The notes beneath the pieces are model-generated. The model saw nothing but the letters and a program-made list of their open reading frames with translations, was not told where the DNA came from and ran no database searches. Shown piece after piece: positions 5,066-7,417 of a stretch of 33,499 nt of DNA. Source of the stretch: an uncultured Syntrophaceae bacterium (GTDB taxonomy: Bacteria; Desulfobacterota; Syntrophia; Syntrophales; UBA2185); contig CAITLA010000011.1 of the NCBI GenBank assembly GCA_903893135.1, forward strand, positions 1 through 33,499, written 5' to 3'. Position 1 is the stretch's first letter, and each line of letters opens with the position of its first letter. The translations under genes and the position numbers were made by a program.

Positions 5066-5503
5066 CTAACCCTGTCCCAATAATTTTGCGGCTTCAGCCA
5101 TGGCTTGCGGCTCCTTGAGTCTTGCCAGTTCCTGCGGTGATTCCTGAAAATTTTCAAGGGCGTTGAAGAAACGGTCGAGGACATCACCGCTGTGAGTCGG
5201 AATCAATAAGAGATGGGTGTGGGGAATTCTTCTGCCCCGCGCATAGAGAAAAATGAAATCAGGCTCGAATTTGTCCATCATCCGGTTGGCGACGACCTTC
5301 GCCACCTTGAAAAGGCTTGCATTTTCTTCATCGGAGAGCTCGTGCCACCACTGGACATGCCGCTTTGAAATCACCAGGCAGTGACCCTTTGTGTAAGGTT
5401 GGATATCCAGTATGCACACGGACAGCTCATCTTCGTGGATCTTGTAGGCATGCGCCTTCCCCTCTATAATGTCGCAGAATACGCAGCTTTTCTTCTTTTC
5501 CAT
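5066..5503 (-). CDS. HIT-family nucleotide-binding protein with altered histidine triad
   Basis: A 145-residue protein with the HIT fold layout: N-terminal CVFCDIIEGKAHAYKI, then VCILDIQPYTKGHCLVISKRH, and a C-terminal triad region reading RRIPHTHLLLIP. HIT proteins bind nucleoside phosphates and hydrolyse or transfer at the alpha phosphate, using the middle histidine of HxHxH as nucleophile. Here the triad is H-T-H-L-L: the first and the nucleophilic histidines are present but the third is leucine, so activity may be altered. CVFC resembles the metal-binding CxxC of some HIT proteins. AAAAGGGG precedes the ATG. It lies 83 bases downstream of the dynamin-like gene on the same strand and could be read through from it. 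Confidence 0.85.
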   Translation of the reverse strand: MEKKKSCVFCDIIEGKAHAYKIHEDELSVCILDIQPYTKGHCLVISKRHVQWWHELSDEENASLFKVAKVVANRMMDKFEPDFIFLYARGRRIPHTHLLLIPTHSGDVLDRFFNALENFQESPQELARLKEPQAMAEAAKLLGQG

Positions 5504-5586: not shown

Positions 5587-7266
5587 TTAAGCTATTAAGC
5601 GCTGCAATCCTCCTTGGAGTTTCTTGATGGTCTCATTGATCTCATCTGTTTGACCATGCGTCTTCGATAACAAGGCGTCTATGGTAGAGAGTTCCTCTTT
5701 TACGTAATTAATCGCCTGTTTTCGCATTTCTTCAATAGCCCTGTTGATCCGGTCCTCCCACTGGGCGGCAAGACGGGAAAGATTAGCCTCCACTTCATGG
5801 GGAATCTCGCTAATAAAATGTTTCTCAAAAAGACCCCTGAAGATAATCATAGGAATGAGAAACCAGATGAGATCGAAATGGAAGTCAAATGATCTTATCG
5901 TCTTGATGTCGGGGTGATCGGGTTCTGATACCTCAATTTTCCAGTCTGCGGGAGCAAGCCTCACACCAAGAACCTTTTCGATATTTTTATCCAAGAGATT
6001 CCTGAAGGATTCAATTGATCTGGATAAACTGGCGTGGGCCTTGTTAAGAGTGCCATAGAAATGTCTATGCTCTATTTTGGAAATATGCCTCATCTCCTCC
6101 GTCATGCGGTCTGCAAGCCATTCTTCGTACCTCCGGGTGAGTTTCCAGAGATTCACTTTCCACATGAAAAGCTCCTTTTCCAAATCCAGAGAGAGTTTCC
6201 TCCTAAGAGGTTTCTGAAAATTATCAAGGTAATTCATAATGAGGGTTCGAGTTTGTCTCTGGTTCTCGCGGGCAATGATGGTTAGTTCCTCACGTATGAG
6301 ATCAAAATTGACCTTTTCATCGAAGATTTGTTTATGAAGATTCTCACGGTCAAGGTCAGCCTGCACAGATGTTTTCAGGGCAATATCGAGATAGCCGAGA
6401 CAACCTCTTATCAGGGACTGCATTTTGTACTGGAGGATTTTCCTGAACTCGAAATCACGGTTTAAGGACAACATGGAGAGAAGACCTGTTTCCAATCGAT
6501 CCTTGTATTGTTCCGTATTCACAAGGGTCGAGTATACATAGATCGGTAATCGCCGGTTTAATTCACGCTGAATCGTTCGCTCAAAAAATTCTATGACTTC
6601 GTTCTGCTGTTCCGGGGAGAGAAGATCAGTTTTTGTCAAAAGGAGCACGATATTCGGCGTGTGCCGTGTTAGCTCCCGAATCAGTTGCACATCATTTTCC
6701 GAAAGCGGACGATCGGAGCTTATGGCAAGTAAGGCAGTCCCCACTTGGGGAAGCCAATTTTCAGAGGTTTCCACATGATATTTGAACACACTTCCCAAGC
6801 CAGGGGTATCCACCAACCGCAGACCTGCATAATCCCTGAGAGACGGAAGCTCAATATCCACAACCTCTACGTTTTTTTTATTGGATGGATTTTCGGCTTC
6901 CGAGGTAAAAGCTTCAATATCGTTAATGGCAATCTCCGATGTGTTGCCGTCGAAATACCTGACAACGGCTTGTTCTTTTTCCCCATATTGAAGGCGGGTA
7001 ATGACAGTAGTAACCGGTATGACGCCAACGGGGAGAACGGATTTGCCGATAAGGCTATTGATGAAGGAACTCTTGCCTGCCTTGAACTGACCGAGGATTG
7101 CCACATCAATAGGCTGGCTCTGGATAAGTAGTTTCTCGCAGGCTTCTATCTGGCGGTTCAGAGAAAGAATAGAAAATCTGGCGCAGAGATCAAGAACGTC
7201 TTTCAGCAGCCGCTGTGAAACATCCTGAATACGGGCTTTTGAGCCATTGTTGATTATGTCGGACAT
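5587..7266 (-). CDS. Bacterial dynamin-like GTPase
   Basis: A 559-residue large GTPase of the dynamin superfamily, predicted to bind and remodel or protect membranes in a GTP-dependent manner. Residues 59-67 (GQFKAGKSS) are the G1 P-loop, 85-90 (PVTTVI) hold the G2 threonine, 153-156 (DTPG) are G3 and 211-214 (TKTD) are G4. Residues 250-450 are long charged helices consistent with a stalk. Residues about 464-484 form a hydrophobic stretch (DLIWFLIPMIIFRGLF), a likely membrane-contacting paddle, followed by an amphipathic helical end. The start at 7266 is chosen over upstream codons because GGAGGAG lies 7 bases before it. The leader carries a fluoride riboswitch and terminator hairpin, so expression is likely induced by fluoride. 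The HIT gene follows on the same strand. Bacterial dynamins often come as side-by-side pairs; this one stands alone. Confidence 0.9.
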   Translation of the reverse strand: MSDIINNGSKARIQDVSQRLLKDVLDLCARFSILSLNRQIEACEKLLIQSQPIDVAILGQFKAGKSSFINSLIGKSVLPVGVIPVTTVITRLQYGEKEQAVVRYFDGNTSEIAINDIEAFTSEAENPSNKKNVEVVDIELPSLRDYAGLRLVDTPGLGSVFKYHVETSENWLPQVGTALLAISSDRPLSENDVQLIRELTRHTPNIVLLLTKTDLLSPEQQNEVIEFFERTIQRELNRRLPIYVYSTLVNTEQYKDRLETGLLSMLSLNRDFEFRKILQYKMQSLIRGCLGYLDIALKTSVQADLDRENLHKQIFDEKVNFDLIREELTIIARENQRQTRTLIMNYLDNFQKPLRRKLSLDLEKELFMWKVNLWKLTRRYEEWLADRMTEEMRHISKIEHRHFYGTLNKAHASLSRSIESFRNLLDKNIEKVLGVRLAPADWKIEVSEPDHPDIKTIRSFDFHFDLIWFLIPMIIFRGLFEKHFISEIPHEVEANLSRLAAQWEDRINRAIEEMRKQAINYVKEELSTIDALLSKTHGQTDEINETIKKLQGGLQRLIA

Positions 7267-7271
7267 AAAAA

Positions 7272-7304
7272 AACTCCTCCAGAATAAGCCCACTGGTAGG
7301 AGTT
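7272..7304 (-). terminator. Riboswitch-controlled terminator hairpin overlapping the ribosome binding site
   Basis: On the minus strand AACTCC-TA-CCAG, a 10-base loop and CTGG-A-GGAGTT form a 10-bp stem with a small internal bulge, followed at once by a run of seven T (7273-7267) that abuts the ATG of the dynamin-like gene. The 5' half is also the 3' strand of aptamer helix P1, and the 3' half contains the GGAGGAG Shine-Dalgarno. The hairpin and the fluoride-bound aptamer are therefore mutually exclusive, and the hairpin would both stop transcription and hide the ribosome binding site. Confidence 0.75.
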
Positions 7305-7346
7305 ATCAGCCTTGCGGCGGTTTGTTAGGAGGCGAACTCCATCACC
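7293..7346 (-). promoter_or_regulatory. Fluoride riboswitch aptamer (crcB motif)
   Basis: Read on the minus strand the leader contains GGTGATGGAGTTCGCC, then AAACCGCC, a GCAA tetraloop, GGCTGAT and AACTCCTAC. This is the order and spacing of the crcB/fluoride aptamer. P1 pairs GGAGTT (7340-7335) with AACTCC (7304-7299); P3 is GCC-GCAA-GGC (7318-7309); the pseudoknot can pair GGTG with CGCC. The conserved GATG, the AAAC preceding P3 and CTGAT...CTCCTAC are all present. The family senses free fluoride bound through Mg ions. The controlled gene is the dynamin-like GTPase whose ATG is at 7266. A TTGACA at 7383-7378 could be a -35 box, but no convincing -10 follows it. Confidence 0.9.
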
Positions 7347-7417
7347 TTCTTTGCAGTCAAACAAATTCGAGATTTCTTGTCAAGGAGTTCATGTATTATC
7401 TTGAAGATTGGCGGCTT

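Follow-up and report, generated by a model that had tools for sequence, protein, structure and literature searches.

Bacterial dynamins are widespread, and to our knowledge few of them have a known trigger. Those described include BDLP of Nostoc, IniA of mycobacteria, Cj-DLP1/2 of Campylobacter and DynA of Bacillus, which share GTPase motifs, a helical neck and trunk and a hydrophobic tip with the protein reported here. The known targets of fluoride riboswitches (RF01734), going by the portions of the published descriptions available, include exporters, mutS, K+/Cl− transport and formate hydrogen lyase, as well as Na+/H+ antiporters, enolase, pyrophosphatase and HAD proteins. Dynamins are absent from the same portions of those target descriptions. 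A literature search returned no paper linking a fluoride riboswitch with a dynamin, the tables of Baker et al. 2012 being a place where an entry may exist; judged by title and abstract, publications that mention both ‘fluoride’ and ‘dynamin family protein’ deal with other matters.

The window, a 33,499 nt stretch of DNA from an uncultured Syntrophaceae bacterium, carries a fluoride riboswitch aptamer at 7290–7355 on the minus strand. A full crcB-type aptamer with P1, P3 and a pseudoknot had been described here in the first-pass annotation, and the Rfam covariance model bears this out: the match to RF01734 reaches 53.4 bits (E 2.8e-12) vs a cut-off of 34 bits and covers the full model (1–64) in a cmscan of the window. 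It is the only RF01734 match in the 2.96-Mb source genome. P3 is capped by a GCAA loop, and the pseudoknot joins GGAGTT of the P1 loop to AACTCC of the 3′ strand; across 32 aptamers 99.4 % of the cells in the pseudoknot pairs are paired, and the majority of pairs are invariant. The leader reads, on the minus strand, GGTGATGGAGTTCGCC...CCGCCGCAAGGCTGATAACTCCTACCAG...CTGGAGGAGTTTTTTTATG. In aptamer sequence and structure, pseudoknot, a terminator overlapping the 3′ end and the expected ON logic the element resembles the described class (PMC2864571), from which it differs in that its target gene is a dynamin.

Direct folding of the leader revealed an 11 bp terminator hairpin at 7272–7304 on the minus strand (−14.2 kcal/mol, z −2.9), whose 5′ arm, AACTCC, is shared with the aptamer, where it forms the 3′ side of the pseudoknot. 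AACTCC has two alternative partners, GGAGTT in the P1 loop and the hairpin's own 3′ arm; the expression platform is coupled to the aptamer through this shared strand, and the same arrangement is found in many homologous leaders. By sequence and fold, a ribosome-binding site, GGAGGAG (7274–7280, minus strand), lies inside the 3′ arm of the hairpin and is followed by a tract of seven U residues (7267–7273, minus strand) directly 5′ of the start codon. The open reading frame had previously been started at a GTG at 7293, within the riboswitch itself. The first ATG, 27 bases further on at 7266, is the likelier start, given the GGAGGAG and seven T's ahead of it and its agreement with the homologue alignment, and yields 559 aa. 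A terminator scan of the window leader called no terminator, the loop of the hairpin being longer than the limit of the scan. No clear same-strand promoter was found just upstream of the aptamer in a promoter scan, so that transcription may read through from the MBL gene. Some of the other leaders (L136, L137, L111, L143, L120, L130, L100 and L151) show a two-hairpin relay, in which pairing with the aptamer strand takes up a GGAG element that could otherwise pair with the terminator 5′ arm, an unusual fluoride expression platform.

The gene that follows (5587–7266, minus strand) encodes a dynamin-like GTPase, as the first-pass annotation had it (Pfam Dynamin_N, E 8.8e-24, 84.8 bits). The GTPase motifs are the P-loop GQFKAGKSS (residues 59–67), PVTT (84–87), DTPG (153–156) and TKTD (211–214); in 32 order-level homologues these motifs (G1–G4, the last as TKxD) are invariant or nearly so. 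In an AlphaFold2 model (mean pLDDT 80) the GTPase domain is followed by a helical neck and trunk, giving a BDLP-like fold. The best structure matches are IniA, BDLP, the Campylobacter DLP pair and mitofusins, with which a profile search of PDB sequences concurs; IniA is matched at Z 17.6–18 over 470–479 residues, with a large rmsd (12 Å) that perhaps reflects a domain hinge, and BDLP at Z 14. Between the trunk helices lies a hydrophobic tip (462–485), with a hydropathy peak at residues 462–480 and a WF(L/I)IPM motif conserved in the 32 homologues; on homology and hydropathy it is a candidate membrane-binding segment. It is a bacterial dynamin-like protein of the BDLP/IniA/mitofusin class and presumably an active GTPase. 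However, it differs from BDLP, IniA, Cj-DLP and DynA in its low identity to them (about 15 % in the structure alignments), in its length of only 559 aa, and in its predicted fluoride-riboswitch control and the membership of its family in fluoride gene clusters.

Directly 3′ of the dynamin gene, at 5066–5503 on the minus strand, is a gene for a HIT-domain protein (Pfam HIT, 1e-14), probably the second gene of a dynamin operon. Among 48 loci counted, 6 have a HIT gene directly 3′ of the dynamin, and so, in addition, does the spirochaete locus L155. Their recurrence behind fluoride-linked dynamins (also L155:5995–6420 and L060:309–734) raises the possibility that the HIT-domain protein is a further fluoride-response gene.

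The pairing of riboswitch and dynamin is not confined to the source genome, as the wording of the first-pass annotation implied, but recurs in many lineages. A protein-only scan of 84,980 species genomes yielded 80 loci, on all of which a covariance model built from order-level aptamers was run; 78 of them were informative. A same-strand aptamer was found within 320 nt upstream of the gene in 68 of the 78 informative loci, and in 64 of the 65 close homologues (at least 53 % identity); the single exception, L127, lacks the aptamer and has kept a terminator ahead of the ATG. Chance juxtaposition is rejected, because the pairing recurs in these 64 close homologues. Of 100 genomes sampled from the order, 50 carry the riboswitch and 41 the dynamin or its sister form; all 41 dynamin genomes also carry the riboswitch (Fisher p 2.5e-19, with kinship ignored).

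The picture extends to the phylum, from which 395 genomes were sampled evenly. The riboswitch is present in 158 (about 250 copies as a sum of matches), and dynamins of the core or the sister family are present in 80; a FastTree tree with long branches served as the basis only for this overall split into two dynamin families. With two core-family gene fragments left out, 86 dynamin genes were counted, 62 of them directly behind an aptamer (core family 27/35, sister family 35/51). Simple regular expressions missed sister-family riboswitches, and Rfam results were taken as labels, the 35 being made up of 22 from the first aptamer assignment and 13 by Rfam. Approximately one quarter of the fluoride riboswitches found in this sample directly precede a dynamin of either family. 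Six more core genes have a same-strand aptamer 0.6–2.3 kb upstream, and in five of these a homologue of an Na+/H+ exchanger, CrcB or enolase belongs to the cluster. Of the sister-family dynamins that have no riboswitch, several adjoin H+-pyrophosphatase, enolase or CrcB: H+-pyrophosphatase follows directly in L170, L172, L175, L176 and L179, and two further genes lie near enolase. L185 has only an MFS gene and a weak DUF6062-like match as neighbours, and L190–L193 have no fluoride-linked neighbour among the families tested. The sister dynamin with H+-pyrophosphatase constitutes a second kind of pairing between a dynamin and a fluoride-related gene. A 16-kb island (L200, G274:C1:1-16000) holds four fluoride riboswitches and a dynamin from each of the two families, together with enolase, Na+/H+ exchanger and CrcB homologues, and one genome of the phylum (G368) has 11 fluoride riboswitch matches.

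At more distant loci (37–42 % identity) the fluoride riboswitch is found in 11 of 13. Fluoride clusters in Spirochaetes, Ignavibacteria and Bacillota include the dynamin alongside CrcB, enolase and Na+/H+ exchangers. The order is riboswitch, Na+/H+ exchanger, enolase, dynamin and HIT in spirochaete L155; riboswitch, CrcB, CrcB, DUF190, dynamin and Na+/H+ exchanger in clostridial L159; and riboswitch, Na+/H+ exchanger, MFS and dynamin in ignavibacterial L157. The cultured Syntrophomonas palmitatica (L166) has two riboswitches, the dynamin and an enolase, the last assigned by sequence similarity only. Enolase follows the dynamin in 12 of the 48 loci counted. A second enolase is encoded elsewhere in most of the genomes with a dynamin–enolase cluster that were examined (G011, G030, G031, G034, G043, G053, and in the same check G059, G078, G081, G092 and G095), suggesting that the enolase linked to the riboswitch is an isozyme specific to fluoride. 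Other genes recurrent in fluoride clusters encode an alpha/alpha-toroid protein (L079:7990–8868), a small AAA/STAND ATPase (L048:8997–9689) and a DUF6062 protein (L158:841–1698). Within the order, fluoride riboswitches also lie about 0.8 kb upstream of a formate–tetrahydrofolate ligase gene (L070:1165–2949) and about 0.3 kb upstream of an H+-pyrophosphatase gene (L035:9565–11643).

In common regulation and neighbours these loci resemble described fluoride-resistance operons (crcB/CLC-F, eno, ppaC, Na+/H+ antiporter), from which they differ in having a dynamin as a member and in that many of the genomes, including the source, lack CrcB and CLC. Searches for CrcB and CLC family genes found none in the source genome, a fragmented MAG of 313 contigs, none in its three relatives of the same genus and none in 27 of the 41 order genomes with a dynamin (of the 100 genomes sampled, 4 have CrcB and 37 have CLC). 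Given the fragmentation, assembly gaps could account for the missing exporters, and exporters of another type are possible, yet four genomes of one genus agree. That the riboswitch serves a neighbouring exporter is rejected, because CrcB and CLC were found nowhere in the source genome.

From the sequence and the logic of the known class, fluoride would bind the aptamer and lock the pseudoknot, making AACTCC unavailable for the terminator hairpin, which would also mask the ribosome-binding site. Transcription and translation of the dynamin gene would then follow, probably together with those of the downstream HIT gene, the element acting as an ON switch on termination and probably on translation too. 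The earlier proposal that fluoride stress induces the GTPase stands in its regulatory part, to which the aptamer, the expression platform and the near-obligate association in many lineages all point: the dynamin is almost certainly under fluoride regulation. Comparative genomics further suggests that the product is very probably a dedicated fluoride-response GTPase. The membrane part of the proposal is more evenly balanced, action at that level having about an even chance of being correct. HF crosses membranes as a weak acid. Weak-acid accumulation is discussed in a review (PMC11139923), and DynA and IniA are described as accumulating at lesions of the membrane (PMC8844932). By its fold and the behaviour of these two proteins, the dynamin would probably use its hydrophobic tip to bind the inner membrane, which it would protect or reshape during HF/F− stress. 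Taken as a whole, a fluoride-ON switch inducing a dedicated membrane dynamin for fluoride defence is the likely, and best, explanation of the locus.

Compensation had also been suggested, whereby a fluoride-sensitive, Mg-dependent GTPase is raised to offset inhibition by fluoride–metal complexes, as proposed for enolase and pyrophosphatase. The operons with enolase and the proximity to H+-pyrophosphatase and MutS-like genes are in keeping with this, and the review gives extra enolase as an answer to enolase inhibition (PMC11139923). However, there is no housekeeping copy of the dynamin: most genomes have a single such gene, and close homologues occur almost solely behind a fluoride aptamer, while the riboswitch-linked enolase is itself usually a second isozyme. 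The dynamin gene thus appears to serve the fluoride response above all, which makes compensation unlikely. Of the two mechanisms first put forward, a protector acting at the membrane is a better fit than a housekeeping GTPase whose inhibition is made good, since outside riboswitch control and fluoride gene clusters close homologues are scarcely seen.

It is less likely still that the dynamin organizes or assists membrane transporters (an unknown exporter, H+-pyrophosphatase or antiporters) instead of protecting the bilayer. Although Na+/H+ exchangers, H+-pyrophosphatase and CrcB are frequent neighbours, no one transporter is constant across the loci, and the source genome, besides lacking CrcB and CLC, has no transporter directly beside the dynamin gene. 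Nor is it at all probable that the riboswitch truly serves the downstream gene, be it HIT as in the window or enolase as in the 12 loci above, with the dynamin as a passenger; the downstream gene changes while the dynamin is constant and usually first after the aptamer, a habit common to two dynamin families.

The near-universal pairing across many bacteria suggests that the dynamin is a dedicated and undescribed part of fluoride survival. More tentatively, a fluoride-induced membrane dynamin could form a third, exporter-independent line of defence, and the main line where CrcB/Fluc and CLC-F are lacking, though the chances of this fall somewhat short of even. Since its inducer would be a defined chemical, fluoride, and the genetic link is tight, the role of this dynamin family is directly testable. 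If the explanation is true, fluoride defence would have a further arm besides export, pH balance and enzyme replacement, and the fluoride tolerance of exporter-less anaerobes may be explained.
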